This document shows positions 11,068 to 62,660 of a DNA stretch of 64,000 nucleotides, one piece after another. The stretch is from Lepidostoma basale (lineage: Eukaryota; Arthropoda; Insecta; Trichoptera; Lepidostomatidae): NCBI GenBank assembly GCA_022606425.2, contig JAHDVF020001018.1, forward strand, positions 1,116,001 to 1,180,000. Direction: 5' to 3'. The position numbers and the translations under genes were made by a program. Under the pieces are notes generated by a model, which was not told the origin of the DNA, did no database searches, and saw only the letters and a program-made list of their open reading frames with translations. The stretch's first letter is position 1; each line of letters begins with the position of its first letter.

Positions 11068-11292
11068 TTAATTAATTAATACGAATGAAAAAACTTATGT
11101 TTCTCTAGAAGTTTTATTATATTTTTGGGGGATTACATGTTTCGCCCTTCTAAGGCATTATCAAATTAGAAGGGCGAAACATGTCATCCCCCAAAAAATA
11201 TAATAAAACTTCTTGAAAAACATAAGTTTTTTCATTCGCATTAATTATTTAATATGGAGTTTTACATCATTGTTCAAAAAACAATAAATAAG
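11068..11292. repeat. Group A hammerhead palindrome
   Basis: Two arms of about 85 bp face each other. Each holds GGGCGAAACATGT, then a TATAATAAAACTTCT block and ATACGAATGAA (inverted). The outer right end carries AATATGGAGTTTTACATC and a small hairpin ATTGTTC...AACAAT, a terminus repeated in other group A copies (17596, 33785, 45585, 62725). The plus-strand hammerhead at the centre (11163-11183) lost its CUGANGA box. Confidence 0.75.
11134..11164 (-). ncRNA. Hammerhead ribozyme motif, group A
   Basis: On the minus strand: UUGAUAA box, one U, stem II GCC/GGC over a UUAGAAG loop, GAAAC, self-complementary ACAUGU, then A at the cleavage position. The box has U3 and A8 in place of C3 and G8, a pair-preserving change. 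Confidence 0.65.
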
Positions 11293-12173
11293 TACATTTA
11301 TTTATTTATTTATTGCTTGTTTACCAAGTAGATAGTTTTAATAGCACCCAACTAGGGTACCCCTCATATGAGGCATTTTTTACCCTCTATATACTCGTAA
11401 ACGCAATTCAAAAATAGGGAATAAAACATTTTTTCTCGCCATATATACTCGTATCTTTACCAAGCGTTCATTTAAAGCAAAACTGCATACTTAACTCATT
11501 TTTTTCCGGCGTATAAACTCCCAATTCATTTTATGTTTATAAGGTGTACTATTAGTACATAATATAATATTTTGTTCACACTTCAAATTTGGACCAATCT
11601 TCACCTTTATATGGAGTCACTATTTCGTTCAGGTGTAATTTTATAGAACTCATATCACATGAAAGAGATAGTAGATTTTATTATATCCTCACTTTTCTGG
11701 TACTTGTTAATCTTAATACGAATATTTATTATTAATGTTCGAGTAAAAAGCCTGTATGAGTTACATTGAACAGATTCAACCTGCAAAAAGATGAACACCG
11801 AAAATAACTAATTTTGATTAATGTTTATCGATTTCTTTTGGCTCCACTTTGCTGTCTATTTGATCTGAACTTTGTTCACGCTACACACGTGTGCATTCAA
11901 ATCTGAAATATTCGCTCTCCGCTCGTTTCAAACGTTAATTGTTTATTCACGACTAAAGCACAAATTCTTCGATGTTATTTTAGTAACAAGTGTAAATTGC
12001 TACAGTTATAGCCATGATAAAGATATGAACAGAATTGAAGCCATTTGGTAATTAATATATACATACAAATACTTGAATCTTCAGGTATATGGATGTTCAG
12101 ATTATTATTATTATCTTTTTTTTATGTATACAACAGGTCGTTTGAACCCAATTACTGTACACAATTTATTTTT
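11293..12173. other. No identified feature
   Basis: A+T-rich, with a TTTA repeat run at 11299-11313 and scattered ACTCGTA motifs (about 11393 and 11447). No frames or paired repeats. Confidence 0.4.
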
Positions 12174-12316
12174 TTAGCTATTATATTGAATCACGTGACC
12201 TGTGATAGGTAGCCAATCTATCGCCATTTTATTGTCACGTGAATTCTACACCAGACCAAAGACAGTGTGACAATTACACTGCCATCGCCGGGAATCGAAC
12301 CCGGGACCTTCTATAT
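12174..12316 (-). mobile_element. tRNA-derived SINE, 3' part of a split copy
   Basis: Antisense copy of the SINE at 18962-19220. It shares the ATGGCGATAG/CACGTGA body and the B box GGTTCGATTCCCGGCGA on the minus strand. The A-box half is found at 13277-13340, past an inserted LINE-A. TATAT is present at both edges of the insert (12312-12316 and 13277-13281). Confidence 0.8.
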
Positions 12317-13276
12317 TAAAAATCCTGGAGACTGTCTTCGCCTCCAGTCGGACATCAATAATATTGTCAACTGGAGTCACAGTAATCAAATGCAATTCAA
12401 TGTCTCTAAATGCGTTATGCTATCTTTTACTAGAGCATTGAGAACTGTGTATTATAGATACACAATGAACAACCAGCAACTAGCACATGTATCTACGATG
12501 AGAGATCTCGGGATCATCTATGAGAGTAGGCTGACTTTTCGTGCACATGTTGAGAGGATTTGTGGCACTGCACTGAAGATGTTGGGCTTCATCGTCCGGA
12601 CCGGCAGAGTTTTCAGGGATCCCAATGTGCTCAGAGTCCTATACAACGCATTGGTTCGGAGCAGACTCGAAAGTGGTTCTGTGATATGGAGTCCTCACGA
12701 GGCGAGATATTCCATTATGCTGGAGAGGGTTCAGAAAAAATTTCTGAGGTATCTCTACATGAGGGAGTATGGTAGCTATCCTTGGCTCTATCCCACGGCA
12801 TTTCTTTTGGGAATGCTCGGAACCAATTCTCTACAGCTTCGAAGAGATGGACATCTAATTACCCATTTCTTTAGATTAATTAGGGGATACTTCGAGAACT
12901 CGGCCGTACTGGAGGGTGTTCGGCTTTTTGTCCCCGATAGATATCTCCGACAGCGACAGCACAGATTGTTTTACCTACCGGCTGCCAGAACCAATCTGCC
13001 TCTGGTGACACCGGTGGGAAGAGCAATTAGTCTGCTGAACGCGGTCTCCTCGGAGATCGACGTCTTTCATGTTAGTGAAAGTACGTTCAGAAGGCAAATA
13101 CTCTTAATTCTGGAGAGTATCCTGTCTTCCTAATGTTGAACCATCTCTTATGCGTTTCTGGTAGTATACTATATATAATATATTATTTTACCTGTTCTCA
13201 ATAGATGCCTTAAAAATAAATTTTGTAATGTCTGTTGATGAAATAAACTGATTTGATTTGAACTGATTTGATTTGA
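12317..13276 (+). mobile_element. LINE-A, longest copy
   Basis: Non-LTR reverse transcriptase from just after the catalytic YADD region: DCLRLQSDINNIVNW, NVSKCVMLSFTRA, VSTMRDLGIIYESRLTFRAH, LYNALVRSRLESGSVIWSP, ERVQKKFLRYLYMREYGSY, TAFLLGMLGTNSLQLRRDG, then NLPLVTPVGR and STFRRQILLILES. The stop is at 13131-13133. A short 3'UTR leads to AATAAACTGATTTGA repeats. The open frame (12267-13133) begins in the split SINE. Jockey/CR1-like; catalytic residues absent. Confidence 0.9.
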
Positions 13277-13340
13277 TATATGGAAGTCAGAGCTCTTACC
13301 ACTCTGCCACGAAGGTCGTCTCTCATCTCAGCCCTTGTGG
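13277..13340 (-). mobile_element. tRNA-derived SINE, 5' part of the split copy
   Basis: The minus strand reads GACCTTCGTGGCAGAGTGGT, an A box in the same head sequence as 18962-19220. It completes the SINE interrupted by LINE-A at 12317-13276. Confidence 0.75.
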
Positions 13341-13636
13341 GTATTCTGCTTATTTCTAGTACGAACATAATTGTAAAAGTGATTTGATAGATTGTCATGC
13401 GGAGCGAGGATTGTTTGTAAATATAGGGTGTTTTTTTAGAGGTTTGGTTTTTAAACTGGCAACATTGTTTCTACAGACTGTCAATTTGACAGTTGAGAGC
13501 AAAACGTGCTGATTTGTAGTCAGTACGTTTTGCCATTTCGCGGGGTTGCTCGATAAAGTTGTCGAAAATTGGACTTGATTGCACTTCATTCGAGCTAGCC
13601 GTGGCGCTCATATGCCTGAAATCATATTTCTTGGCT
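13341..13636. other. Possible DNA-transposon end, unassigned
   Basis: GGGTGTTTTTTTAGAGG is followed by TTTGACAGTT and G+C-richer sequence. The style resembles transposon ends of lepidopteran and other insect elements, but no partner end was found. Confidence 0.2.
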
Positions 13637-14085
13637 TCTTCTTCTTCAAGTACCCCGTCGGGTCCCCCCAACGTTGGCGATCACCTCGGTGAACCTGTCC
13701 CTGTCCTGCGCCACTCGGAACAGCTCCTCCACACTTCGGACGCCGGTCCACTCCCTCACGTTTCGCAGCCAGGACATTTGTCTCCTACCGGGCCCTCGGC
13801 TACCCTCAATTTTTACCTCCAATATCAGTTGGAGAAGGTGGTAATTTTCCCCACGCAGTGTATGACCTAGACGTGAAATTTTCCGAATCTTGATAGTTGA
13901 TAACAGTTCCCTGTCAACTCTAGCTCGCCTCAGGACTTCGGTATTGGTAACCATGTCTGTCCAGGGAATTCTGAGCATTCGGCGATGGAGCCACATTTCA
14001 AATGCTTCCAGTCTGTTCATTGAGTTGAGAACAGACCACACATAGCATTTGATCATTCTCTGGCGGAGTTTCAAGTTTATGTTAT
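13637..14085 (-). mobile_element. LINE-C 3' fragment
   Basis: The minus-strand frame (13646-14074) encodes MKLRQRMIKCYVWSVLNS, MNRLEAFEMWLHRRMLRIPW, VLRRARVDRELLSTIKIRK, GRRQMSWLRNVREWTGVRS, EELFRVAQDRDRF and TEVIANVGGTRRGT, with a GAAGAAGAAG tail. A small deletion removes LYGCETWTLK after WSVL. Catalytic core absent. Confidence 0.85.
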
Positions 14086-15672: not shown

Positions 15673-15764
15673 ATTTTTTTATCTAAAAAATATTTAATAA
15701 AACTTATAAACTGTTAAATTAAAAAACTTTGTTTTATGTATCACAATGTATTTTTATTTTACGC

Positions 15765-15798
15765 GACAACTGTTTCGTCAACATTTTGACATCATCAG
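15765..15798 (-). ncRNA. Hammerhead ribozyme motif, group B
   Basis: Minus strand: canonical CUGAUGA, one U, stem II GUCAA/UUGAC, GAAAC, then ACAGUUGU and C at the cleavage position. Stem III has lost perfect self-complementarity (one change from ACAGCUGU). Confidence 0.7.
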
Positions 15799-15928
15799 GT
15801 GTTAAAATAATATATCAAATGTCAAGTTTTCGTGATTTTTCGAACCTTTATGTGTATTTGTTCCTATGTCAATTTTAGTAAGTTCCAAAAATCGGGAAAA
15901 TTTTACATTTGATATATTATTGTAACAC

Positions 15929-15964
15929 CTGATGATGTCAACATAGGTTGACGAAACAGCTGTC
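15929..15964 (+). ncRNA. Hammerhead ribozyme motif, group B, well preserved
   Basis: CUGAUGA, one U, a perfect 6-bp stem II GUCAAC/GUUGAC closed by AUAG, GAAAC, palindromic ACAGCUGU, then C as cleavage base. Flanks ACAC and GCGU can form a short stem I with one mismatch. Confidence 0.8.
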
Positions 15965-16111
15965 GCGTAAAATAAAAATACAATTGTGATACGTAAAACA
16001 AAGTTTTTAAATTTAACAGTTGGATGCAAAAAAAATGGACTATTTATAATAAAACTTCTATAAAAAATACGTTTTCTTTCGTATTAATTATTATCAATGA
16101 AATTATTATAT

Positions 16112-17370: not shown

Positions 17371-17433
17371 TTAGTAATTAATACGAATGAAAACGACGGT
17401 TTTCTAGAAGTTTTATTATATTTTATGGGAATG

Positions 17434-17463
17434 GCATGTTTCGCCCTTCTAAGGCAATATCAA
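17434..17463 (-). ncRNA. Hammerhead ribozyme motif, group A, degenerate
   Basis: Minus strand: UUGAUAU box, GCC/GGC stem II, GAAAC, then ACAUGCC, which breaks the stem III palindrome. Confidence 0.5.
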
Positions 17464-17502
17464 ATATCATTTCTTTTTTATTTCTTAGGCATTGTCAGAC
17501 AT

Positions 17503-17533
17503 TTGATAATTCCTTAGAAGGGCGAAACATGTC
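17503..17533 (+). ncRNA. Hammerhead ribozyme motif, group A
   Basis: UUGAUAA, one U, stem II CC/GG-type pairing (first pair U-C lost), GAAAC, palindromic ACAUGU and C. U3-A8 form of the core. Confidence 0.6.
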
Positions 17534-17644
17534 ATTCCCATAAAATATAATAAAACTTTTAGAAAACTGTCGTTTTCATTCGTATTAATTATTTAATATG
17601 GAATTTTACATCATTGTTCAAGTATCAACACATAAAAAATAAGT

Positions 17645-17815
17645 ATTTATGAAAACGTCTGTTTTCTAGCAGCTCTACTAATTTTATTATATGTTATGGA
17701 GTTGTCTTGTCTCGCCTTTCTAGGACATTATTAAATATTGGATAATGCCGTAGCAAGACGAAACATGTCACTCCCGTAAAAATATTAACTATGTAGAAGA
17801 CGTTTTCATTAATCT
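17645..17815. repeat. Group A hammerhead palindrome, decayed
   Basis: Inverted TGAAAACGTCT/AGACGTTTTCA ends enclose TTATGGAGTTGTCTTGTCTCG and ACGAAACATGTCACTCCCGTA. The plus hammerhead (17738-17769) is clearer than the minus one (17706-17735). Confidence 0.6.
17738..17769 (+). ncRNA. Hammerhead ribozyme motif, group A, degenerate
   Basis: UUGGAUAA (one inserted G), U, GCCGU and a mismatched stem II partner, then GAAAC, ACAUGU and C. Confidence 0.45.
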
Positions 17816-18600: not shown

Positions 18601-18745
18601 ATAAGAATGATTGGATCAGACAGTATTTAATTAAACGGTAGAGTATACCATAGATTATTTTACATACCCGTTGTCAGCCTGCATGTCAAAAATCCAATTG
18701 TTGTGTAACATTATGAATAGTAATTAATATTGATTCTTGTCACAT

Positions 18746-18776
18746 TTGATAATTCCTTAGCAAGGCGAAATATGTC
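18746..18776 (+). ncRNA. Hammerhead ribozyme motif, group A, single copy
   Basis: UUGAUAA, U, weak stem II, GAAAU in place of GAAAC, AUGU and C, followed by the CACATAAAATATAATAAA tail. No inverted partner nearby. Confidence 0.5.
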
Positions 18777-18961
18777 ACTCACATAAAATATAATAAACCT
18801 TCCAGATAACGGACGTTTTTAACAATCATAAACATTTTATTTATTTAAACTATTATGTTTCTGATTCCCAACACCCTTCTTCTATATATTTTTTAAACTG
18901 ATAATTTTTTTAAATCATTTCTTAACAACTAAATGAAAGAGGCGAAGTTATTTCATTAGGT

Positions 18962-19282: not shown

Positions 19283-19495
19283 ATACACTGTTAAATTAAA
19301 AAACTTGGTTTTATGTATTATATCACAATTGTATTGCTATTTTTCGCGACAGTTTTTTCGTCAACCTATGTTGGCATCATCAGGTGTTACAATAATATTT
19401 TTAATTAGTGTGTTACAAAGTTTTTTTAATTTAACAGTGTATAATGTTAAAGTATCGTAGTGTTTCGGCCAAAACTATGGACTATTTAGCCATTT
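19283..19495 (-). repeat. Group B hammerhead unit
   Basis: Carries CACTGTTAAATTAAAAAACT, TGTATTATATCACAATTGTA and the hammerhead, then an inverted AAAGTTTTTTTAATTTAACAG end. GTTTCGGCCAAAACTATGGACTA follows, an outer module shared with 27415-27440. Confidence 0.65.
19348..19383 (-). ncRNA. Hammerhead ribozyme motif, group B, decayed
   Basis: Minus strand: CUGAUGA, U, GCCAAC/GUUGAC with one C-A mismatch around AUAG, then GAAAAAACUGUC, which damages the GAAAC box and stem III. Stem II is an intermediate between the GU/AC and GC/GC versions. Confidence 0.55.
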
Positions 19496-27271: not shown

Positions 27272-27514
27272 AGACATATTTAGAATAAAACTAAATATCG
27301 TACATTAAATAGTATTATTTTATGTGAATAAAGGCCAAGCAAATAAATGACAAAGCGTCCAATATCCTTCCTATTAAATCCTAATGAAAAGGTTAGACCA
27401 TATATATTTTAAATAGTCCATTGTTTTGGCCGAAATATTATGATACCTTAACATTTTAAAATGTTAAATTAAATAACTTTGTTTTATGTATCACAATTGT
27501 ATTTTATTTCACGC

Positions 27515-27550
27515 GACAGCTGTTTCGTTAACCTATGTTGACATCATCAG
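27515..27550 (-). ncRNA. Hammerhead ribozyme motif, group B
   Basis: Minus strand: CUGAUGA, U, stem II GUCAAC/GUUAAC (one mismatch) with AUAG loop, GAAAC, palindromic ACAGCUGU and C. Confidence 0.75.
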
Positions 27551-27618
27551 GTGTTACAAATACACATTAAGGTTCGAAAAATCACGAAAATTTGACATTA
27601 GATATATCATTGTAACAC

Positions 27619-27654
27619 CTGATGATGTCAACATAGGTTGACGAAAGAGCTGTC
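27619..27654 (+). ncRNA. Hammerhead ribozyme motif, group B
   Basis: CUGAUGA, U, perfect stem II GUCAAC/GUUGAC with AUAG, then GAAAG in place of GAAAC, AGCUGU and C. The C-to-G change at position 15.2 weakens stem III. Confidence 0.7.
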
Positions 27655-27715
27655 GCGTAAAATAAAATACAATTGTGATACATAAAACAAAGCTATTTAA
27701 TTTAACAGTTTAGCA

Positions 27716-35306: not shown

Positions 35307-35435
35307 TTTTATACAGATTTTTCTTACATTAACCTTTCTTGTGTTTTGTTCAAATAATATTTTGATGTAATCAAATGATTTCACCGAAATCTCTCGATGG
35401 AAGTCCATTTTAAGTTATAATTAAATTAAACGATG

Positions 35436-35540
35436 TTAATTTAACTACTTCCACTTGGACCAGTCTGTCGATGCCAACGAGCCTGGCGAAACCGGTCGCT
35501 GTGGAAATAATGATAGAAGTGGAAGTAGTTAAATGAACAT
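35436..35540. repeat. Group D hammerhead palindrome
   Basis: AATTTAACTACTTCCACTT faces AAGTGGAAGTAGTTAAAT, enclosing one hammerhead. A sister unit is at 41336-41480 and a remnant at about 52850-52880. Confidence 0.7.
35465..35497 (+). ncRNA. Hammerhead ribozyme motif, group D
   Basis: CUGUCGA (A6 changed to U), one U, stem II GCCA/UGGC, GAAAC, palindromic ACCGGU, C. Stem I CAGU/GCUG forms four pairs including G-U. The same CUGUCGA box is in the copy at 41369. Confidence 0.65.
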
Positions 35541-36386
35541 AATTTAATTTAATTATTATTTAAAAATTAAGTTATGTTGTGTTACTTTACTACGTAATTC
35601 GGCGAACATGGCAAAAACATTTATCAGTAAATCAAATGGCAATAATTGTTTGATTTTATCTTCTGAATTATTCGTATTACGCATAAAGTTTGTAATGGCA
35701 CTGTAAGATTGTAAATCTCAGATGTGCGAGTATATCAAAAATGGTATATTATAAAAAAAAAACATTGTCTATCAGGCGGAATACGAAATGAATTCTGAGA
35801 ATCAGCAAATTACGTAAGTACGGACACACGTGTTTTTAATTTATACGTAAATTATTCAATATTCAAATACATACATTGGTGCGTTGTACGTCGGCGTCTG
35901 GGAGTCTGCCGGAGTCAGCCATAAAAAATATTAGTCGGCTATAATATAACGCCACTACCAGAGATAACGAAACAACAGCGCTATTCTGACTCTATATGTT
36001 CGTTACACGTGTATACGCAGTAGGACGTAATAATTATTGGTACCTACTGATTCAATATTATTATTATTATTATCTATTATAAATATTCTGATGTTGAAAA
36101 TTTGGTTTGGTTCATGTTGTGCTCCTGTAAATTTGGAGATATTTCGCGTATAAGTGAATTATTTTGGTCAATTTAACTGTTGCCGCACTTTATAATAGTT
36201 CATTGTGACACGTAATACGTTTGTATTGTTTTGCTGGTAAAATTATATTAGTTTTATCGTTTTATCTTTTTAAAAAGAATTTTGACAGGTATAAATTTTT
36301 TTTTTTTTAATTTGTTCCAATGACAATTTGAATAATTTATTCAATATTATTTTAAAGTTCTTGCTGGTTAAGTGCCTAATTACAGC
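35541..36386. other. No identified feature
   Basis: Unassigned, with a TTA microsatellite at about 36058-36072. Confidence 0.4.
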
Positions 36387-37608: not shown

Positions 37609-39100
37609 CTGTATTATACTGTATCATGCTAATAACATAATTATTTAGTAAAAAAATAATTATGTAATAATTGTAAGATACTGGCTGAAATAAAGTATAT
37701 TTTCATTTCCTGTTTAAAAATGGTCTAATTAAATTTGTGGTCAAGATAACGAAGCAGTTGAACTTGAATCTTCTGACATAACATGGTTGAGCTCTGTTGA
37801 CTAGTTCTTATATGTCTAATTGAAAAAAATATATAGAGTATTTGATTCACTATTCTGTGAAACGTAATAAGATTCCTATTAAGATATTATAAATGCAATA
37901 TTTAATGCCTCATCATTAATTATTTGCTAATTATGTGGTCATTAAATGAAATAGGAATTATGTTAATCCTATTGAAAAATGTATACATATATTAAGTACA
38001 ATAAATGTTTTTGTATGAAGCACTTTATTTGTGGTGTGGCATTATTGAATATTGCATATATTAACACAGATCATCCAACGGGAAAAATCGTGGCTTTCTA
38101 TTTAGAAGTTTTATTACGAAACCGGTCGATTGTTGGAATTAAACAAGGATATTACGGATTTTTTCATTTTCATTATTTTATGACTATATTGCACTGCATA
38201 ATCAGCCTCACGGGACTCCTCCTCGTGTAAGACCTCTTAACCCTTAACGTACCGTGTTCAAAACAAAACGCTTGCTCCCATGTGGTAAGTTCAGTTTACC
38301 GCTAACTTTATCTAAATATCAAGCATATGACTAGATGAATCAAAATTTAATTTATGTCATCTTGTAGGGAATTTCATTAGGAATAGATCGATATCTATAA
38401 CATACATGGATTATTTGAAAAACATATCATTATTATTTTTTTTCTGGAACCATGCGATTTCTGATATGTAATGCGTCATAGCATACGGACGACTGGGACA
38501 TCGGGTCGGGTCGGGTCGAAACTTGTCTGAGCGCCGGGCCGGCGGGGCGATGATAAAGGCACCTAGGCAAAATGTATAGTACGTTCAAGACAACGAGTAC
38601 GTATTAATATTTGTCCCTTTTGGTAAAGTGTTAATATTTTCACAGTTCTGATATTATTAACTTACGTGCTGCGTTTTCATCCAGTCGGTATTATTACGTA
38701 CCTATTGAAAAGGTCAAAGATATAATTTATAATACGTTCAAAACAGCGAGTAAGTATTTGTCACTTTTGATAAAGTTGTAAATATTAGCAAAACAAATTC
38801 TACCTTAACACGAATGAAGGTGAGGGCAGTCTTAGAAAATATTTTTTTTTGGGATGAAGGAAGTAATTTTTTGCTTTTTTTTATTACGAAATATTGAGAA
38901 CACTTCAATGGAGGATTACAATTTTTTTTATAATATTAGGGTCCATAGGTTTTAAGAAAATCAACTTTAAATTGGCAGTGGAAACTCAATTTACCACATG
39001 GCAACGCGACGGTTAAAAGATGGAATGACAGCTGGGAATCCACCTCACAGGAGGTGCAACCCTCTAGAGAACAGACCTATAGGTCTACAATAAGGAATGT
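37609..39100. other. Mostly unassigned; small trace of group D sequence
   Basis: At 38020-38100, TTTGTGGTGTGGCATTATTG resembles the flank of the group D unit at 59260. ACGAAACCGGTCGAT occurs at 38115 without a CUGANGA box. A GGGTCGGGTCGGGTC run lies at about 38502. Confidence 0.3.
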
Positions 39101-39104
39101 GTAA

Positions 39105-39143
39105 AGCCCTGAGGAAGCTCGCATAGAGCGAAACCGGTAGGCT
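39105..39143 (+). ncRNA. Hammerhead ribozyme motif, group D, best formed
   Basis: CUGAGGA, one A, stem II GCUC/GAGC with GCAUA loop, GAAAC, palindromic ACCGGU and A at the cleavage position. Stem I is a perfect 4 bp AGCC (39105-39108) with GGCU (39140-39143). All three stems can form if two molecules share stem III. It is followed by AAATAAAGTGGTTGTATA, as in other group D units. Confidence 0.8.
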
Positions 39144-39221
39144 CTCATCCTCCCAAATAAAGTGGTTGTATACCAAGTACAAAAAGTGTTTAATTAAGTG
39201 TTAAAAAATATGTTTTATTAG

Positions 39222-40625: not shown

Positions 40626-41335
40626 AGAATTTTTTGGAAGAAACTTTGGACAGTTCTGCGAATTTGAACGTAGGCGTTTCACCAGCAGTATCTATCGTCC
40701 ATTCAATTACAAATGTCTCTACAGTATATTTTTATAGCACTCAATTGCACAAAACATGAATCCCAAGATTAATCAGTCGCATTAGTTTGAATATTTCTAA
40801 GTTGGAATTATATGTATTTTTAAATGATATGTACTCGTATAAGTTAAACATCGATAATTTCCATAACCATCATCAATTTTTAAATTATGAGCAGTTTTTT
40901 TTTCTAAGGTTTTCATTACATTTTTATTAAATTTTTACATTTAACGCCATGTTTATATTTTCTCTACTCGTTGCCAGACTACAGATCAAACACCGTTTTA
41001 GACATTTTATGAAATATTTATTACAGACGCAAAATGTGTGACGTGTTATAGTGTTGTGGGCTCCGTTTGTGTTCGAATTGAGCTCTCAGAAATTAAAAAG
41101 TTTTCCTACTTCAATTATAATAGATCGCAATTTGACTCCTCTTGAGATATGGAAGACCAGCTATCTCCAGTTTTTGGGTGGCCAGTTGATTTACAGGTAT
41201 CTCATTTGCAGGAGTGTATGCGATCCTGTGAGTATCCATACGATTTACATGGTCTCGCCGCATAATTTTTTTCGATGTATTTAAAAACCAATCCCTTTTT
41301 TACGTATAATAATTAAATAAAAATATATTTTTTAT
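40626..41335. other. No identified feature
   Basis: A+T-rich; a 77-codon frame (41051-41284) has no recognised domain. Confidence 0.35.
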
Positions 41336-41480
41336 AACTACTTCCACTTTTGTCTTTATTTCTACAGCGACCGGTTTCGCCAGGCTCGCTGGCATCGACA
41401 GACTGGTGACACTATTGCAAAACGAGTCCTTTATCGAGTCGCTATCGAAATAAAGACAAATGTGGAAGTAGTTACAAAAA
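41336..41480. repeat. Group D hammerhead palindrome
   Basis: AACTACTTCCAC and TTTTGTCTTTATTTC face GAAATAAAGACAAATGTGGA and AGTAGTTAC. One hammerhead in the left arm; the right arm's copy lost its core. Confidence 0.7.
41369..41401 (-). ncRNA. Hammerhead ribozyme motif, group D
   Basis: Minus strand: CUGUCGA, one U, 5-bp stem II GCCAG/CUGGC, GAAAC, ACCGGU and C. Stem I CAGU/GCUG. The A6-to-U change is shared with 35465, so it is ancestral to this subgroup. Confidence 0.65.
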
Positions 41481-41655
41481 ACGTCGTTTTATTTAATTAT
41501 TATTTAAAACGAACTTCCATCAAGAGATTTCAGTTAAATCATTTGATTATCCTTTTTATATACAATAGGTATTTGACGTAAATTCCTATTTTTTTTTAAT
41601 AATAAATATTTTATTGCATTTCTTTCTCAATACACTTGGTTGTTATCTAACTTAA

Positions 41656-42639: not shown

Positions 42640-42960
42640 TAATAAATAACCAATTAAATTTCAATTCAATACCCATGCTCGATATGTTCCCGTTACACCC
42701 CCCCTCTCCTCAATCCTAATTAAACCCTTTCCACTTTTATACATAACTCGATCTCCATTTAGTATATAAGTGACCGCTCTGTTTTATTTGATTGTTAAAA
42801 TTGTATACATTGACAAAGGTTACTTGTAACCGAAACATGTCTGAGTTCAGTGAAAATAAAAAAAATTGTAATACAAAGTTTAATTATATTTAATCGAATA
42901 GAAATCTACAACACAAAGTGAAGGCGAATATAGAAGATATTTCTTAACTTAAACCATTAA
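42640..42960 (+). repeat. Group C hammerhead unit, full order
   Basis: CCCCCCTCTCCTCAATCC, CATTTAGTATATAAGTG, the hammerhead, CAGTGAAAATAAAAAAAATT and then CTACAACACAAAGTGAAGGC with GAATATAGAAG. Layout could be a decayed long-terminal-repeat-like end of a Penelope-like element (inference). Confidence 0.6.
42810..42841 (+). ncRNA. Hammerhead ribozyme motif, group C
   Basis: UUGACAA (U3-A8 form), one A, perfect 6-bp stem II GGUUAC/GUAACC with a UU loop, GAAAC, palindromic ACAUGU, C. Confidence 0.75.
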
Positions 42961-43305: not shown

Positions 43306-43419
43306 GATTATTAATTAAAATACTATCATCGTATTTTATTTTTATATTTAATTAAAGTTATTTTTGTTTCTCTTTTTATATATAACACACTATTTATTTC
43401 TTTTTTAATTAAAAAACCA

Positions 43420-43451
43420 AACATGTTACGGACACACAAACCCTTCATCAG
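43420..43451 (-). ncRNA. Hammerhead ribozyme motif, group C, decayed
   Basis: Minus strand: canonical CUGAUGA, one A, GGG/UCC stem II, GUAAC in place of GAAAC, ACAUGU and U. The A-to-U at position 13 should abolish activity. Confidence 0.6.
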
Positions 43452-43585
43452 TGATATATAAATATATAATTATTTTTTTTTTAATTCACGAATGTGGTCA
43501 GTTTTGACAGATATTAAAATGAAATAAAATTAATAAATCATTTTTTTAGGTTTGTATATAAACCACTTTTTTCGTTATAAACACT

Positions 43586-43617
43586 AACCGGTTTCGCTCC
43601 CGCCGGAACTTCGTCAG
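43586..43617 (-). ncRNA. Hammerhead ribozyme motif, group D
   Basis: Minus strand: CUGACGA, one A, G-rich stem II (GUUCC facing GGGAGC), GAAAC, palindromic ACCGGU, U. The flank GTTATAAACACTAACC and AAGAATGTCACACC are shared with 59050-59290. Confidence 0.7.
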
Positions 43618-43619
43618 GG

Positions 43620-44345
43620 TAACGGAATATATATTTACAAGTGTATTATTATTTTATTTAAGAATGTCACACCATAAATTTTTAATAATAATTTCTTCTC
43701 TTGCTATTGTGGTGGAAGGTTTGGCCGACTTTGTGTCGTTTCATCGAGGCACCCTTCTTGCCCCTAACGATTAAAACGTTAACGTATATATTTTTTAATA
43801 TGTTTACTCATTAGAACACATAATTAAAAATATGTTTAAATGACAGTTACTTAATTTTAGCGTTTTCAAAGCCATATTTTCTTTCAAAATTATTTTGACC
43901 GAATTTCTTATGATTGATGTGTTTTTCGTATGAACGTTCCTTCGATCAGTCAAAAATCTGTGACAGACGGTCTTCTGACAATGTTGTGCGTAGGATATTT
44001 CCCTCGCTTATGTTTTCCCGCCAATTCCAGTAGCGTACGTGTAATTGGATTTTTTCGAATGACTGCAAAGGTTGTGTAGTAATCTCCCGACAAATGCTTA
44101 AATCCCGCCATACGTAATATTTGTATTTTTCTAAAAAGCTTAAAGTCCTACGGTTTCCTATGAGCGTAATTACGTAAGAGCATTATTACTTTACACGTTC
44201 GCATTTCACGTTAATTCATTGTCACACAACGTGTTATCAGAAATAGTGAATCGAATCTCGTGCCAAAATTTTAATCCCGGGATTAGCGGTTTGTTTTTAA
44301 TGTCCAGGATGAATTCAACACGTGTTTCTTATTTATAATATTTTA
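43620..44345. other. No identified feature beyond group D flank
   Basis: The first 80 bases match the group D unit flank (ACAAGTGTATTATTATT); the rest is unassigned. Confidence 0.4.
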
Positions 44346-44580: not shown

Positions 44581-44770
44581 AAATAAAGCAAAGAAATCAA
44601 CACCATTTCATTTCATAATTATTAATGAGTTTTGCCATATAAAAAAATAATACTTTTCATAATTATGAATTATATTATTAAAAGCGTGAAATCCGCATAT
44701 TTTATGTCTATTTTTCTTTTTTATACATTTTTATTAAACAACACTTTTATTAAAAAAATAAAATTATATA

Positions 44771-44801
44771 AACATGTTTCGAACAAACAGTCCTTTTTCA
44801 G
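44771..44801 (-). ncRNA. Hammerhead ribozyme motif, group C, decayed
   Basis: Minus strand: CUGAAAA (C3-A8 mismatch), A, GGAC/GUUC stem II, GAAAC, ACAUGU, U. Intermediate between the C3-G8 and U3-A8 states. Confidence 0.55.
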
Positions 44802-45069
44802 TAATTTTAGAAATTAAAAAAGCTATTAAAAATAGAGAAAATATTATAAATAATCAAATAAATTTAACGTCAAGTCCAATCTTTGATGTATTTCCTTTGT
44901 TGTAAGTAATTACCTGTACCCCAATAAGAACTTTAAATTATTATTTTAAATTGAATCATAATATTTGTTATAACAAAAGCATAAACGTTCCAAAATAAAT
45001 CTTTAAAACATCTGTCAGATCATGTTAACAACAACAATTTTATAATATTTTTATAAATATGTATCTTGA

Positions 45070-45100
45070 CTGAAGAAGGACTGTTCGTCCGAAACATGTG
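45070..45100 (+). ncRNA. Hammerhead ribozyme motif, group C
   Basis: CUGAAGA, one A, stem II GGAC/GUCC with UGUUC loop, GAAAC, palindromic ACAUGU. The cleavage base is G, which hammerheads do not accept, so this copy should be dead. Confidence 0.65.
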
Positions 45101-45229
45101 TGTGTAATTTAATTTTTTAATAAAAGTATTGTATATACAAAGTGTATAAAAAAGAAAAATAGAAATAAAGCATCAAAACAACACCTCAAACATAACATGG
45201 CGTTACGATTGTACTCGTATATGTTTTAT

Positions 45230-45545: not shown

Positions 45546-45656
45546 ATGATGGTTATTTTATATTGTTTCTTGAACAAAGATGTAAATCTCCATATTAAAT
45601 TATTAATAAGAATAAATACGTATGTTTTCTAGAATTTTTATTATATTTTATATGAA

Positions 45657-45688
45657 TTACATATTCCGCCTGTCTAAGGCATTATCAT
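45657..45688 (-). ncRNA. Hammerhead ribozyme motif, group A, decayed
   Basis: Minus strand: AUGAUAA, U, GCC/GGC stem II, GGAAUAUGUA. GAAAC lost. Confidence 0.4.
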
Positions 45689-45805
45689 TATAAAGTATAA
45701 ATTGTTTTTTACAATGTATTAAGCCACATCAATTACTTTAATTACCGTATTCTGCTCCTTTTAACTCGTGTATAAAAACATCAACGCGTTTGATTTTCGC
45801 TACAT

Positions 45806-45836
45806 TTGATAATGCCTTGGATAGGTGAAACTTGTC
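45806..45836 (+). ncRNA. Hammerhead ribozyme motif, group A
   Basis: UUGAUAA, U, GCCU/AGGU stem II with G-U, GAAAC, UUGU and C. Stem III has one change from ACAUGU. Confidence 0.55.
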
Positions 45837-46014
45837 ATTCACATAAAATATAATAAAGCTTCTAGAAAACGGACGTAAAGTAAAGTTAATACATATATTT
45901 TTAATTAACTACTGTATATAAAGTTTTTTAAATGTTTATCCGATCATTGACATATCGAATAAATATTGATATATTCTGCCTTATTTATTATTGCCATTTC
46001 CCACTTTAAGTGGT

Positions 46015-46515: not shown

Positions 46516-46688
46516 AGGTTGTTTGTGACAGCTGATAATGCCAAAATTGTGATACGTATTATCTCAGTGTTTCAAAAAAAAATTATCTAATATTTATTGA
46601 ACGCTAAGGCATTAACACTGAAATTCCATAGTAATATACTTAGGAAATTGAAAATAACTTTGTTTAATACACTAAATATTTAAAAAAT

Positions 46689-46719
46689 GACATGTTTCGG
46701 AGGATAACTTCATCTTCAG
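46689..46719 (-). ncRNA. Hammerhead ribozyme motif, group C
   Basis: Minus strand: CUGAAGA, one U, a weakened stem II, GAAAC, palindromic ACAUGU and C. Confidence 0.65.
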
Positions 46720-46933
46720 GTGTAAAAATATAATAAAAACTAAACAAAGAAAGACTAATATAAAAAACGCATTTAAAATTCGATACAATAATTTAAATTT
46801 AAAAATTAACCTGGGCTTAGCAAATAGCAACAAATAGCCCAGGTTAATTTTTAAATTTAAATTATTGTATCGAATTTTAAATGCGTTTTTTATATTAGTC
46901 TTTCCTTGTTTAGTTTTTATTATATTTTTACAC

Positions 46934-47227
46934 CTGAAGGTGGCTCTACGGATAGGCGGGCTGAAGTGGCGGTGGGCTGGCCATATCTGTCGGAGAACCG
47001 ACAGCCGATGGGGAATACGGGTTCTGGAGTGGAGACCGCGTACAGGATTCCGTAGAGTTGGACGTCCCCCTGCCCGCTGGACCGACGATCTGAAGAGGAT
47101 TGCTGGACATGGATGGATGGGAGCGGCAATGGATAGGGGGCGGTGGCGAGCTTTGGGAGAGGCCTACATTCAGCAGTGGATGACAGACGGCTGATGATGA
47201 AGATGGAGGTATCCCCCGAAACATGCC
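46934..47227 (+). ncRNA. Hammerhead ribozyme motif split by RTE-A
   Basis: CUGAAG at 46934-46939 is cut off by the insert. The motif resumes at 47201 with A, U, stem II GGAGG/CCCCC (one mismatch), GAAAC and ACAUGC then C. Removing the insert plus one TGAAG copy gives a continuous hammerhead. Confidence 0.65.
46940..47197 (+). mobile_element. RTE-A 3' fragment inserted in a hammerhead
   Basis: Encodes VALRIGGLKWRWAGHICRRT, DSRWGIRVLEWRPRTGFRRV, GRPPARWTDDLKRIAGHGWM and GEAYIQQWMTDG-stop, then a GATGA tail. TGAAG is on both sides (46935-46939, 47198-47202). Almost identical in protein to 56107-56485. Confidence 0.85.
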
Positions 47228-48399: not shown

Positions 48400-48462
48400 T
48401 ATTAATAATAGTAAACACGATTGTTTAGTGGTTTTACTTGGATTTAATTTATATTAATTGTG

Positions 48463-48497
48463 ACAAATTTGTTTCGCCTTGCGAGGGCATTCTAAAA
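48463..48497 (-). ncRNA. Hammerhead ribozyme motif, long stem III variant
   Basis: Minus strand: UUUAGAA (decayed box), U, GCC/GGC stem II with a CUCGCAA loop, GAAAC, a 10-nt palindrome ACAAAUUUGU, then C. Confidence 0.6.
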
Positions 48498-48550
48498 CTG
48501 AACCTAATCGCCAATCGCTAATCGCCCAATGTTTGGCGATTAGGTTCAGT

Positions 48551-48585
48551 TTGAGAATGCCCTCGCAAGGCAAAACAAATTTGTC
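48551..48585 (+). ncRNA. Hammerhead ribozyme motif, long stem III variant
   Basis: UUGAGAA (U3-A8 form), U, GCC/GGC stem II, AAAAC in place of GAAAC, ACAAAUUUGU, C. Mirror copy of 48463-48497. Confidence 0.6.
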
Positions 48586-48601
48586 ACAATTTATATAATT
48601 T

Positions 48602-48937
48602 ATTTATTTATACATGATACACAAATGAGACATTACAAACGATAAAACATTTAGGCGACTCATTTGGACACAAAACGGTATTACAAAGATAAAATAAAAC
48701 AAAACAACAAGAGACCAAAAAATCATACATATCAGAAGGAATCCAAATATGTCGACGTCAGTGAGGCAGTACTCTTTCCAGAATTCGCAATATTTTTTTA
48801 TGAATACTGCCTCACTGACACTGAAAATGTCCAAATCCGAGATGATTATATTCAGCGTCCGAATTGCTCTTCATACTGGCATCACCAAAGGCAGGTTGGT
48901 TCTGCGTGACGGAGTAAAGAACAATTGATGTCGGCAA
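48602..48937 (-). mobile_element. LINE-A-like 3' fragment
   Basis: Antisense AACCTGCCTTTGGTGATGCC encodes NLPLVMPV. The following frame reads LDIFSVSEAVF and matches IDVFHVSESTF of LINE-A. A short palindrome (GTCAGTGAGGCAGTACTC facing GAATACTGCCTCACTGAC) lies inside. More diverged than the other copies. Confidence 0.65.
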
Positions 48938-51150: not shown

Positions 51151-51629
51151 AGGATTTAACACTGATTCTCAAGCAAAAGAGAACAAATAATTGTTACAAT
51201 AATTAGCTAATATTACAAACGATTGTTTTTGCCGAGATTCGCGTTTAATATTTGTTTGAATCAAGTTCAGTTTTGTTATATCAACATCCTTTGTTCTGGT
51301 TATCTGTTTGGCGTCGCTGTATTGTCGCTCGGTGCATACACGAACTTGCCAAATGCGTCAAGGTTATCTACCAACTTGTAGGCACATTATCGGGATCTGT
51401 CAAAACCATTATATATGGAAACATTGACTTCAAACTTTAGTTTCTTTATTCATCAAAATTTACATACAAAAATTATGTATTTAAAAAATAAGTCGTCAAA
51501 TTAAAGTGTCATCAAACAAGAATCTCGTGAATAATTTAAAGTATGAAACATTTAATGTGCACTTTGCCTCTTTTTAAAAAACACCGAAATATTTTGGTTC
51601 AACACAATTTGATTTGATTTAATATTACC
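51151..51629. other. No identified feature
   Basis: A+T-rich; a short TTTGATTTGATTT run at 51608 resembles a LINE-A tail without a body. Confidence 0.35.
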
Positions 51630-51660
51630 AACCGGTTTCGCTTCTGCGAAGCTTCATCGT
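51630..51660 (-). ncRNA. Hammerhead ribozyme motif, group D, box damaged
   Basis: Minus strand: ACGAUGA (one base of CUGAUGA lost), one A, 5-bp stem II GCUUC/GAAGC, GAAAC, ACCGGU, U. Stem I UACC/GGUA can form. Confidence 0.6.
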
Positions 51661-51745
51661 GGTATAATCTGTTTATTTTGTGACCTTGATGAATCTACGC
51701 TTTGAGTGACATTGTTTTTATAGTGTTAAAAAAACAAAATAAAAA

Positions 51746-51778
51746 ATTGTGTTTCGGGCCGCAGATACCCTTCTTCAG
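51746..51778 (-). ncRNA. Hammerhead ribozyme motif, group C, stem III lost
   Basis: Minus strand: CUGAAGA, one A, stem II GGGU/GCCC, GAAAC, then ACAAUU rather than ACAUGU. Confidence 0.55.
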
Positions 51779-51849
51779 TGTTAAAATTTTAACAATTAAA
51801 TGATACGACATCGTTACTTACGTACTAAATAAAGGTCCGTCTAGGATGG

Positions 51850-52235
51850 AAAACTGTTATTTTATTCGGATTATAGGACAAAAGGAACAAATCAATGATT
51901 GGGCTGTAAGTTCTTGAACTTCAAGTCCAATCATTGATTTGTTCCCTTTGTCCTAAAATCCTAATTAAATGAAAACAATAACCACTACCTCTGGACTTAA
52001 TCAATCCCCCCTTCCTGTTTTAGTTAATAAATGGGTAACAATTATGTATCTTTTTATTGTATAAATATCTACACTGGGGAAAGGCGTCTGTGGCCTGAAA
52101 CATGTCTATGAAAAGTGCTGTGAAAATACAATGTTTTTGAAAAAATATTCAAATTTGAATCCACAATGGTTTTGGCGAATATATAAGACTCAAAATAGAG
52201 AGTTGTTAAAACAAAATATTTAAATTTCTTCTTTA
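51850..52235 (+). repeat. Group C unit with inverted start
   Basis: GGATTATAGGACAAAAGGAA and CAAATCAATGATTGG face CCAATCATTGATTTGTTCCC. Then ACCTCTGGACTTAATC, the hammerhead, GTGAAAATACAATGTTTTTG and AATCCACAATGG follow in the order of 42640-42960. Confidence 0.65.
52074..52106 (+). ncRNA. Hammerhead ribozyme motif, group C, decayed
   Basis: CUGGGGA (A6 to G), A, stem II AGGC/GCCU, GAAAC, palindromic ACAUGU, C. Confidence 0.5.
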
Positions 52236-52291
52236 TTCGCCATTACTTTGTGTTGTGGATTCACATTTTAATAACTTTTAAAATTCATACA

Positions 52292-52327
52292 CTGAAGAAG
52301 GGAAGTTTGTGTCCCGAAACATTTTTG
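52292..52327 (+). ncRNA. Hammerhead ribozyme motif, group C, stem III lost
   Basis: CUGAAGA, A, stem II GGGA/UCCC, GAAAC, then AUUUUU. Located after an inverted TTTGTGTTGTGGATTCACA block. Confidence 0.55.
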
Positions 52328-52499
52328 TAAAAAGTACAAAAAAGACTTGTGATAATACAATGTTACCAAAAAGTTATTCAAAATATTTAAGCACTTAAAT
52401 TTCATTCTCAATTATTTTATTTATTCAGTATTTGCTTTTTAAATATTTTTTTTTTATTAATTTGAAAGTTTTCGTGCTACTTTTTTTATATTTATATTA

Positions 52500-54057: not shown

Positions 54058-54640
54058 CTTCTTCTTCTTCTTCAGCATGTATTGACCGTCCACTACTGGA
54101 CATAGGCCTCCTCTCACATTTTCCATTCTCTTCTATTCTGAGCGATCCGCAACCAGGCATTTCCCGCACTTCTCCGGATATCGTCGCGCCAACGCAACTG
54201 TGGGCGCCCAACTCCACGCTTTGCCGTCCTTGGCCACCAGCACAGCAGTCGCCTTGTCCACTTTTCATCTGGATCACGAGCGACATGTCCCGCCCATCGC
54301 CACTTGAGGGTTAAGGCCATCTTGATAACATCGGAAACCTTTGTCCTGACTCTTATGTCCTCATTTCTGAGTCTGTCCCGTAAACTGATACCCAACATGG
54401 CTCTCTCCATTGCTCTCTGAGTGACTCTTAGCTTGTTGGCACTTTTTTGTGACATAGTGACTGTCTCAATATCATAAGTGAACACTGGCAGGACACAGGC
54501 ATTGAACACTCTCCTTTTCAAGTTGATGGATATTTTCGGATTTTTCAAAATGTGACCAAGATTTTTGAAATCTGCCCAGCTTAGTCCGACTCTTCTATTC
54601 AGGTCTGCTGTCTGGTTATCTCGCCCGAGTGTTATAGGAA
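54058..54640 (-). mobile_element. RTE-A 3' fragment, longest open C-terminus
   Basis: The minus-strand 186-codon frame (54114-54674) encodes LNRRVGLSWADFKNLGHILK, VLPVFTYDIETVTM, RVTQRAMERAMLGISLRDRL, LKWRWAGHVARDPDEKWTRR and VGRPQLRWRDDIRRSAGNAW. A stop replaces the usual SLGEAY after REWK. GAAGAAGAAG tail. Confidence 0.85.
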
Positions 54641-56485: not shown

Positions 56486-56691
56486 TATTAAATTATAGCT
56501 GGAACTAATTTTTACTAAAATATGGTGGATTTATAAAATTATTATATTATACATAAATTGTTTCCTGAACAATTATGTAAAATGTCTTCTATATTCACCA
56601 TACTTTGTGTTGTAGATGCTTTATTCCTCTTTTTCTTTTTTATATACTTTGTTTAAACAACACTTACAATAAATAAATAAAAAATTTCACA

Positions 56692-56722
56692 GACATGTTT
56701 CGGACAACCAGTCCTTTTTCAA
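56692..56722 (-). ncRNA. Hammerhead ribozyme motif, group C, U3-A8 form
   Basis: Minus strand: UUGAAAA, one A, stem II GGAC/GUCC with UGGUU loop, GAAAC, palindromic ACAUGU, C. Differs from its mirror copy at positions 3 and 8 together. Confidence 0.75.
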
Positions 56723-56888
56723 TGATACATATTATAAAGATACATATTTAAAATATTATAAAATTGTTTACATGATCTGACAAATGTTATAAAGTTTTAT
56801 CAATTCGTTAATAAATCTTTATGACATCTGTCAGATCATGTAAACAATTTTATAATATTTTAAATGTGTATCTTTATAATATGTATCA

Positions 56889-56919
56889 CTGAAGAAGGAC
56901 TGGTTGTCCGAAACATGTC
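56889..56919 (+). ncRNA. Hammerhead ribozyme motif, group C, C3-G8 form
   Basis: CUGAAGA, one A, stem II GGAC/GUCC with UGGUU loop, GAAAC, palindromic ACAUGU, C. Canonical core apart from the extra A. Confidence 0.8.
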
Positions 56920-57000
56920 TATGTATAATAATTTTAAAAAATGTAAGGGCTGTTTAAACAAAGCATATAAAAAAGAAAAGGAGAAATAATGATGTAAAAC

Positions 57001-57180
57001 TCCATATTAAATAATCGATTCGAATGAAACACTGTTTTATAGAAGATTTATTTTATTTTATGGTAATGACACGTTTAGTAATGTAATTTGATAATGCCTA
57101 AGCGTGGCGAAACATTTCATTCCCATAAAATAAAATAAATTTATAAGCAACAGCAATTTTCATTCGTATTAATTATGATA
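57001..57180. repeat. Group A hammerhead palindrome, short
   Basis: ACTCCATATTAAATAATCG on the left; CCCATAAAATAAAATAAA and TTTTCATTCGTATTAATTAT on the right. The left hammerhead is lost. Confidence 0.65.
57088..57118 (+). ncRNA. Hammerhead ribozyme motif, group A
   Basis: UUGAUAA, U, GCC/GGC stem II, GAAAC, ACAUUU, C. Stem III has one change. Confidence 0.55.
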
Positions 57181-59098: not shown

Positions 59099-59126
59099 AA
59101 CCGGTATCGCTCCCGCCGAAGCTTCT
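59099..59126 (-). ncRNA. Hammerhead ribozyme motif, group D, decayed
   Basis: Minus strand: box partly lost, stem II GCUUC/GGGAGC, GAUAC in place of GAAAC, ACCGGU, U. Confidence 0.45.
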
Positions 59127-59137
59127 ATTCTGTTACC

Positions 59138-59169
59138 CTGACGAAACTCCGGCGGAAGCGAAACCGGTT
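59138..59169 (+). ncRNA. Hammerhead ribozyme motif, group D
   Basis: CUGACGA, one A, imperfect stem II around CCGGCGG, GAAAC, palindromic ACCGGU, U as cleavage base. Confidence 0.7.
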
Positions 59170-59444
59170 TATAACGAATAAAGTGGTTTATATTTGTACA
59201 ATACAAATTTTACAAGTGTATGATTATTATATTTATTAATATTTAATAATGTCACACCACAAATTAAAAGCTTTAAGATGCAGATTACAGATTTTAAATT
59301 ACAGAAAATACAGATTTTCTTATGCAAAAGTATATTTTTAAAAACCTTACAATGTTGGGTTAATTTAAAATTTGTCAAATACGGTTAACCATTTCTTAAA
59401 TTTTTGAGAACTCCGTTATCTTGGAGGCTATTCATCTTAATGTT

Positions 59445-60825: not shown

Positions 60826-60881
60826 CCCAAGCTGTTATAAGACGCAGCGGCGCCCTTTCGTCAGCTTCGCGTATTTGCAAT

Positions 60882-61818: not shown

Positions 61819-61855
61819 CCTTCCCTGTCCATGCGGGACTGACGTTAAATGTAAT

Positions 61856-62180
61856 TTTGAGCAAAACAACAGAAACTCCAGGCCGTGTTTAATCTACGTG
61901 TCAATCTACCAGTACAGTAATAGCTGATGAAATTAGAAAAAATAATATCATACGTTGACTGATGCGGAAATTTCTCACTTCGTGACGTCATAGATGCCGC
62001 GCCCCCGCAGCCGGACGATGGTGGGGGAGGCAGTTCCGTAAATAGGGGGGGGAGGGGGATTGTTTTCGTTTCTCGGAATCTCGGCGTGCAGAAAATGATA
62101 TAAATCCCAAATCCCATTGCCCCTTTCACGGTCGACCTTCAAATACGTTTCCACAAAAACCGACCGCCACCGTTGTAGAG
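61856..62180. other. G+C-rich island, unassigned
   Basis: GCCGCGCCCCCGCAGCCGG and AGGGGGGGGAGGGGGATTG lie within; a 94-codon minus frame (61845-62129) is proline-rich and unrecognised. Contains TGACGTCA, a CRE-like site, at about 61983. Possible promoter. Confidence 0.3.
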
Positions 62181-62486
62181 TCGGCTCGACTGCAATTCAT
62201 TAATATATATCGAAATCAAATGTATACTAAATTATTTCGAACGTTTTGAAAAGCCGCACTGATGTGTTCCAGGAGCCGAAACCGAGTAGGAATTAAATTG
62301 TTTCCATATAAACTAAATATGCTTTACTACGTATTAAATGTTGTTTATTAATATTAAAATTACGATTTTTTTAACACTTTAGAAAAGTGAAAAAAAACTG
62401 TAGTTCATTAAAAATTCTACAATATTAAATTTATAAATTTGAATACTGGTATTACGTATCACAATTTATTCTTATACGTTTGTCGC

Positions 62487-62522
62487 GACAGCTGTTTCGC
62501 CAACCTATGTTGGCATCATCAG
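62487..62522 (-). ncRNA. Hammerhead ribozyme motif, group B, compensated stem II
   Basis: Minus strand: CUGAUGA, U, stem II GCCAAC/GUUGGC with AUAG loop, GAAAC, palindromic ACAGCUGU, C. The second stem II pair is C-G where 15929 has U-A. Confidence 0.8.
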
Positions 62523-62629
62523 GTGTTACAAACAACTGAGTTGTTGTCAACTTTAGCGACAAACTAATCAATTGTGATACGTATTAACAGTGTTTTCAAT
62601 TTAAACATTTAACATTGTTAAATAATCAT

Positions 62630-62660
62630 TTGATGATACCTTAGAAGGGCGAAACATGTC
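62630..62660 (+). ncRNA. Hammerhead ribozyme motif, group A
   Basis: UUGAUGA (U3-G8), U, CC/GG stem II, GAAAC, palindromic ACAUGU, C. Followed by the group A tail ending in ATTGTTCAAGAAACAAT. Confidence 0.7.

Follow-up and report, generated by a model that had tools for sequence, protein, structure and literature searches.

A 64-kb window of the genome of Lepidostoma basale (Trichoptera; assembly GCA_022606425.2, 769 Mb), taken from contig JAHDVF020001018.1 (positions 1,116,001 to 1,180,000) and called the window throughout, contains a swarm of small hammerhead ribozyme-like motifs, many of which lie head to head in the two arms of palindromic repeats. These motifs are probably minimal type I hammerheads located in the pseudo-long terminal repeats (pseudo-LTRs) of Penelope-like elements (PLEs), and the palindromes probably represent single two-sided insertion events that left two 5'-truncated copies of an element. 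This reading is drawn from sequence comparisons, in which the motif, its families and their anatomy, and the orientation, tails and shared flanks of the paired copies were observed directly.

The window was searched using a descriptor consisting of (C/T)TGAN(G/A)A, a Watson-Crick pair between positions 3 and 8, a given number of extra bases, a stem II no shorter than 3 bp and GAAA. It gave 16 matches with one extra base, none without an extra base and one with two, against means of 0.40, 0.37 and 0.23, respectively, in 30 dinucleotide-matched simulations (maximum of 2 per class). A covariance model (R1) built from 19 window motifs found 33 places at E<=0.005, namely the 19 training motifs and 14 others independent of the training, and 38 places at E<=1. 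The motifs are real and occur far above chance; the descriptor match at 49144-49174, which was missed by the covariance model, is probably a chance match. An earlier reading of the window from its letters alone (the sequence-only reading) was right about the presence of the motifs and slightly high about their number (about 40), and the three places it had named were all recovered by R1 (15929, 58.3 bits; 39109, 29.2 bits; 56889, 56.6 bits). A search with the Rfam hammerhead families, which it had proposed, returned no match in the window either at gathering scores or at E<=10, and used alone it misses all of the motifs. Over the whole genome the model RF00008 found no hammerhead, and the same model was silent in all 14 control genomes; the null result is a limit of the models' reach and not evidence against a hammerhead-like fold. 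Rfam microRNA matches overlapping the palindromes were rejected, having scores under the gathering thresholds. Six arbitrary 10-kb pieces from elsewhere in the genome yielded 11 motifs at E<0.01 over their combined 60 kb (two pieces held none), compared with 33 in the 64-kb window; the swarm is therefore a genome-wide property, with a copy number that can be put roughly at the order of 100,000 by scaling from these pieces.

Genome-wide counts were obtained with a strict pattern that includes one extra base and an ACATGTC site. This pattern matched 11,278 times with C3 and G8, 14,056 times with U3 and A8, and 26,705 times with either letter allowed at both positions, so that mixed combinations made up 1,371 matches (5.1%) and the C3-G8 or U3-A8 pair of a hammerhead core was present in about 95%. 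Among the 100 matches listed of the 26,705 there were 34 C-G, 60 U-A, 3 C-A and 3 U-G combinations (2x2 Fisher test). Paired combinations are far in excess of the mixed ones, and positions 3 and 8 therefore covary as a hammerhead core pair should. Hammerheads with U3-A8 are a natural covariation from C3-G8 and are active in vitro (PMC3088659). The reversed patterns had no match in the genome (0 against 26,705), which bears out the genome-wide enrichment expected under the sequence-only reading. That reading had also placed an extra base behind CUGANGA, and correctly so: nearly all motifs have a single additional base separating A9 from stem II, with 11,278 genome matches for the pattern having it and 104 for the pattern lacking it, and by eye an extra G explains most of the 100 listed among these 104.

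Compensatory changes were found in stem II of the 19 window motifs, where two of the three pairs were changed on both sides and 93% of the cells were paired, in an alignment whose rows were partly selected for having stem II. The rows of this alignment (A2) were also partly selected for the 3-8 pair, and it was not used to judge that pair. In many motifs GAAA is followed by a self-complementary stretch (ACATGT, ACAGCTGT or ACCGGT) and then by the cleavage base, and hammerheads with such a stem III are thought to act as dimers according to reviews, including passages of PMC7761336. Self-cleavage after H17 is the activity predicted from the core, and it would most likely take place in dimers joined through the palindromic stem III.

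By similarity to seeds that we chose, the motifs were sorted into about twelve families (F1-F12), several with very few members, rather than the four groups initially proposed. As far as seen, the cores of F1, F2, F4, F5, F6, F10 and F11 are mainly C3-G8, those of F3 (TTGATAA), F8 and F9 are U3-A8, and the core of F7 is CTGTCGA, with U at position 6. Departures from the usual core thus concern A6 in F7 and, by compensated change, the 3-8 pair in F3, F8 and F9. The two core pairs can also differ within a pair of arms: in the F1 pair at 56676..56935, whose arms are 93% alike, the left core is TTGAAAA (U3-A8) and the right core CTGAAGA (C3-G8).

A genome search for GIY-YIG gave at least 62 matches, and 30 loci were fetched. 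An F7 motif lies about 450 nt downstream of GIY-YIG in 17 of these 30 loci (two of the loci overlap two others), and L037, L047, L049 and L051 each have an F2 motif some 365-410 nt downstream of the GIY-YIG coding sequence and in the same orientation; for F2 the analysis covered the upstream GIY-YIG, and not the reverse transcriptase (RT). The F7 locus L070 contains a 758-aa open frame with both RVT_1 (E 1.4e-13) and GIY-YIG (E 6.6e-5), that is, the two PLE domains in one open reading frame (ORF). Relatives of the L070 protein (best 120 of 1,343) had the same domains, the named ones being from insects, and F7 therefore has the make-up of a PLE. A structure search with this protein matched no solved structure. 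Among the copies listed, a family-typical start codon follows the core at +103 in F7 (MNFHQEISVKSFDY), mostly at +91 to +102 in F3 (MEFYIIVQETIN), mostly at +88 to +104 in F2 (MEFHSVNVLAFNK; MEFHSVN.LAFN), at +96 in two copies of F4 (MLRYHNISAKTMDYL; +69 and +127 in other copies) and at +117 to +122 in F1 (MANIE, MVNIE or MAYI). PLE proteins in the database begin with MEFHQVP, MNFRKVT or MDFRKIT, to which the predicted N-termini of these five families are alike as judged by eye; the ribozyme therefore appears to be part of the pseudo-LTR, a short way ahead of the ORF. The anatomy of a PLE, i.e. a pseudo-LTR running to the ORF start, an optional tail, a short target duplication and 5' truncation, was found in F7 and F3 and in part in F1, F2 and F4.

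That the motifs are ends of several PLE families is supported by these results. The sequence-only reading had taken them for ends, non-autonomous or decayed, of several families of the kinds known to carry hammerheads, PLEs among them; for PLEs this agrees with the GIY-YIG coding sequences near F2 and F7 and with the PLE-like start codons in five families. The repeat families are not unrelated, as it had described them, since they share one anatomy; the palindromes it had reported are present, but appear to reflect the mode of insertion of the element and not the ribozyme. It had also named short interspersed nuclear elements (SINEs), of which no sign was found in an analysis that made no search aimed at them.

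Among the matches listed, neighbouring motifs within 1.5 kb were mostly in the divergent -+ orientation (16, compared with 2 +-, 6 -- and 2 ++), and all 18 pairs of F7 neighbours within 2 kb were -+. In 31 of 37 divergent pairs both arms belonged to the same family. Homology between copies ends at similar places downstream, and the upstream extents vary. The downstream, outer ends of F7 are of two kinds: a short end, which stops at TTATTTAATTATTA, and a tailed end, which runs about 48 nt further and includes an ATG and 14 codons. A first, scripted set comprised 15 F7 pairs, two of which were left out with one end marked "?", and all 13 classifiable pairs had one short and one tailed end. A second set, consisting of the first 100 exact F7 ends listed and their tails, had exactly one tail in 17 of 18 pairs (P 5e-5 for independent tails at a frequency of 42%); in the whole genome, the tail was present at 2,293 of 5,293 exact F7 ends. 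For F3, the scripted classification gave one tail in 12 of 15 classifiable pairs (4 of 19 pairs were left out, an end not being found). Flanks of at least 8 bp were shared by 8 of 15 true F7 pairs (for example L055 and L062) compared with 11 of 210 mismatched pairs. In the window a target duplication of 13 bp was found at 27399/27714; elsewhere in it matches of 8-11 bp were found, possibly by chance, and two of the 14 palindromes listed had no 8-bp match.

In 38 F3 copies the inner ends of the arms have an abrupt boundary at (G)ACAT, which lies four or five bases ahead of the core, unlike F1, F2 and F4, whose upstream likeness fades gradually. Either the template begins at (G)ACAT or something halts the enzyme there. 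Short head-to-head F3 centres with exact arms occur 2,024 times genome-wide; the centres are short and partly palindromic. The F3 centres, as seen in the copies of L013-L033, also contain short fillers resembling copied pieces of the arm ends.

A pair enclosed within one target duplication argues for one event, and its two unlike outer ends argue for two separate starts of reverse transcription. The hammerhead appears to lie in the pseudo-LTR about 90-120 nt ahead of the ORF start codon. Under the two-sided insertion that we propose, the reverse transcriptase-endonuclease of the element would cut the two target strands at positions offset by roughly 10 nt. Complementary DNA (cDNA) would then be primed from each side of the staggered break by target-primed reverse transcription. 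On a tandem template, the cDNA of the short end would begin immediately ahead of the point where the ORF of the following unit starts, and at the tailed end the second cDNA would begin about 48 nt further on. Both cDNAs would pass through the ribozyme and usually halt early, giving two 5'-truncated copies joined centrally. This would leave the ribozymes of both strands facing away from the centre, carried along as passengers at the ends of the element. Such two-sided priming would be in keeping with the purified PLE of the anole, which cuts and extends both strands and in which the interval between two RT start sites corresponds to the tail (PMC11167929).

Several results weigh against this proposal. 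Six of the 37 divergent pairs join different families (two in L033 and one each in L004, L030, L013 and at 62473/62616 in the window), of which L033 looks nested and L004 and L030 join similar subfamilies. The one-tail rule is broken by 1 of 18 pairs in the second F7 set, which has no exact tail, and by 3 of 15 F3 pairs (two tail/tail, one short/short). Fewer than 8 flank bases are shared in 7 of 15 F7 pairs, among them L054, in which a longer shared flank is seen by eye, and the flanking duplications of the older window palindromes are mostly unclear. A coding copy of F1, F3 or F4 was absent from the loci analysed, a small part of the copies in the genome, when these loci were searched with the L070 protein, and the putative link of the three families to PLEs is drawn from start-codon anatomy and insertion structure. 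In the anole PLE the two strands were not seen to differ in where reverse transcription starts, and the tail is found in a fraction of copies (PMC11167929), and the main text of the study on the PLEs of Adineta vaga favours self-priming on an antisense template (PMC3846280).

Self-priming, i.e. the copying of a single cDNA or antisense transcript that has folded back on itself, from which both arms would derive, was preferred there in view of palindromes at inverted junctions. It would fit the likeness of the arms (82-98% in the listed palindromes of the window, 92-99% in the best F7 arm matches) and the short, partly palindromic centres of F3. However, it predicts identical outer ends, and the F7 pairs consist of one tailed and one tailless end in 13/13 and 17/18 cases; the one-tail rule therefore favours starts that are paired but unlike over fold-back copying, and we regard self-priming as improbable. 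Spread of the motifs as animal retrozymes, i.e. as tandemly repeated, non-coding units that carry type I hammerheads and move as circular RNA with PLE enzymes acting in trans, was judged by the standard of tandem non-coding repeats of 150-450 bp carrying a type I hammerhead. Tandem copies were few among those seen, and include the F3 units of L003 (2165-2570; 103-bp spacing, each with a hammerhead-like core) and three units at 269 bp at C1:1464007; the sharp end of the F3 arms before the core also looks as if a short, defined template had been used. The listed neighbours are nevertheless mostly divergent and not tandem, and the tails include PLE-like ORF starts; we regard a retrozyme origin as very improbable. 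It is extremely improbable that the palindromes are fold-back elements or DNA transposons resembling miniature inverted-repeat transposable elements (MITEs) that acquired a hammerhead and were moved by a transposase via terminal inverted repeats. Short palindromes with fixed outer ends do look MITE-like at first sight, but the outer ends within a pair differ by the one tail, the inner ends are variable, the tail contains an ORF start, and coding PLE copies share the same ends and the same pairing.

Mixed-family pairs (L013, L030, L033 and 62473/62616 in the window) were considered as proof of two templates and rejected, there being no convincing target duplication and L033 being nested. Nested insertions were seen in L058, where an F7 pair is flanked by F3-like sequence, and in L033, where F3 and F4 copies lie inside an F10 pair.

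If insertion was two-sided, it might also be asymmetric by rule: one particle would act at one staggered break and use each of the two start sites in the template a single time, one site for either side, giving every insertion one tail. Stem III would dock two template RNAs as a dimer, providing a separate template for each side; we put this forward as a possible but rather doubtful extension. If it were true, the importance of the ribozyme would lie in dimerisation, and this would account for the amplification of a family with a non-canonical U6 core. In F7, the pattern with any base at position 6 matched 5,124 times, the usual A was present in 16 of these, and T was found in all 100 among the matches listed. 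A natural A6C hammerhead cleaved at below 0.1 per min (PMC3088659), and ribozyme mutants had no effect on insertion of the anole PLE in vitro (PMC11167929). The ribozyme may not be essential, judging from the young family F7 that lacks A6; it mattered in the large old families, given their covarying core.

Table 1. Hammerhead-like motifs and motif pairs in the window; every row is supported by covariance model R1.
Feature	Position	Strand	Details
F3 palindrome	11067..11253		motif 11118-11178 (-), core TTGATAA+T (U3-A8); short left end and tailed right end (by eye)
F4 head-to-head pair	15751..15978		motifs 15751-15812 (-), 15915-15978 (+); core CTGATGA+T; right-arm stem III palindrome ACAGCTGT
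F3 head-to-head pair	17375..17591		motifs 17417-17477 (-), 17489-17549 (+)
F3 motif	17724..17785	+	weak partner 17688-17748 (-), E 0.25
F3 motif	18732..18792	+	
F4 motif	19334..19397	-	
F4 head-to-head pair	27457..27712		motifs 27501-27564 (-), 27605-27668 (+); ORF start MLRYHNISAKTMDYL outside left end
Old F7 relative	35408..35565		motif 35440-35513 (+), core CTGTCGA; left end tailed by eye
F11 motif	39095..39155	+	core CTGAGGA+A; stem II GCTC/GAGC; stem III ACCGGT
Old F7 relative	41306..41503		motif 41353-41419 (-), core CTGTCGA; short left end and tailed right end
F8 motif	42796..42857	+	U3-A8 core TTGACAA+A; stem II GGTTA/TAACC
F10 motif	43404..43465	-	
F5 motif	43570..43631	-	core CTGACGA+A
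F1 head-to-head pair	44755..45116		motifs 44755-44818 (-), 45056-45116 (+)
F3 head-to-head pair	45617..45877		motifs 45642-45701 (-), 45792-45852 (+); left end tailed
F2 motif 46673-46733 (-)	46673..46942		outer end of palindrome 46711-46942
F9 head-to-head pair	48445..48602		motifs 48450-48509 (-), 48538-48597 (+); right core TTGAGAA (U3-A8); both arms damaged
F6 nested inverted set	51614..52341		motifs 51614-51673 (-), 51730-51792 (-), 52060-52122 (+), 52278-52341 (+)
F1 head-to-head pair	56676..56935		motifs 56676-56736 (-), 56875-56935 (+); ORF start MVNIEDILHN outside left end
F3 motif	57074..57134	+	core TTGATAA+T
F5 motif	59124..59185	+	
F4 motif	62473..62536	-	core CTGATGA+T
F3 motif	62616..62676	+	adjoins F4 copy 62473..62536

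Inverted repeats without hammerheads are present at 10467-10827, 25396-25582 and 26986-27272; they have like ends (e.g. GTGCCACACTGTTT, CAAGCTCTCCACA) and are perhaps DNA-transposon MITEs. The arms of a further inverted repeat (63152-63398) contain CTGATGAGTGTAAATA, a look-alike of the hammerhead box with no GAAA at the right distance. The open frames at 1310-1981, 8013-8708, 12267-13133 and 54114-54674 resemble, by eye, protein fragments of retrotransposons of the long interspersed nuclear element (LINE) type.

Taken singly, hammerheads in PLEs, U3-A8 cores, tails and head-to-head copies are all known already. No prior report of their combination, of its scale, of the near-strict one-tail rule or of the young U6 family was found in the open-licence literature, outside which the two main papers on PLE hammerheads lie. 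The genome offers natural experiments, with C3-G8, U3-A8 and U6 families in thousands of copies, and its thousands of ends record the start point of each cDNA. The one-tail rule turns the "optional" tail into a mechanistic statement that can be tested by an in vitro PLE assay.

Minimal type I hammerheads of PLEs, as reported by Cervera and De la Pena in 2014 and by Lunse, Weinberg and Breaker in 2017, are said to lie in pseudo-LTRs in thousands of dispersed copies, with action as dimers proposed. The motifs studied here are like them in the minimal core, the little stem III, the location in pseudo-LTRs and the scale of copies; as compared with their descriptions, they differ in that the commonest strict form is U3-A8 and that an extra base after A9 is nearly fixed. 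The hammerhead of chrysanthemum chlorotic mottle viroid (CChMVd; De la Pena and Flores, 2001) reportedly has an extra core nucleotide between A9 and 10.1; there it is one extra nucleotide in a viroid, whereas in L. basale the extra base is fixed throughout a swarm of retrotransposon ends. The role of minimal hammerheads in PLEs is called "still a mystery" in a passage of PMC7761336. For hammerheads with U3-A8, several examples are given in PMC3088659, compared with 14,056 strict matches in this genome. The Poseidon PLE PAc of Anolis likewise has a single ORF with both RT and GIY-YIG, a hammerhead close to the start of that ORF, a tail between two RT start sites and both strands cut and extended; its ORF begins at stem II of the hammerhead and its tail occurs in a fraction of copies (PMC11167929), whereas here the ORF begins about 90-120 nt after the core and each F7 pair has one tail. 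According to its main text, in which hammerheads have 0 occurrences, the study on Adineta vaga describes Penelope elements of few copies for which self-priming is favoured, unlike those described here; these elements are alike in having inverted pseudo-LTRs, head-to-head copies, target duplications of 8-10 bp, an ORF start inside the pseudo-LTR and a tail that may be borne by one of the inverted pseudo-LTRs (PMC3846280).

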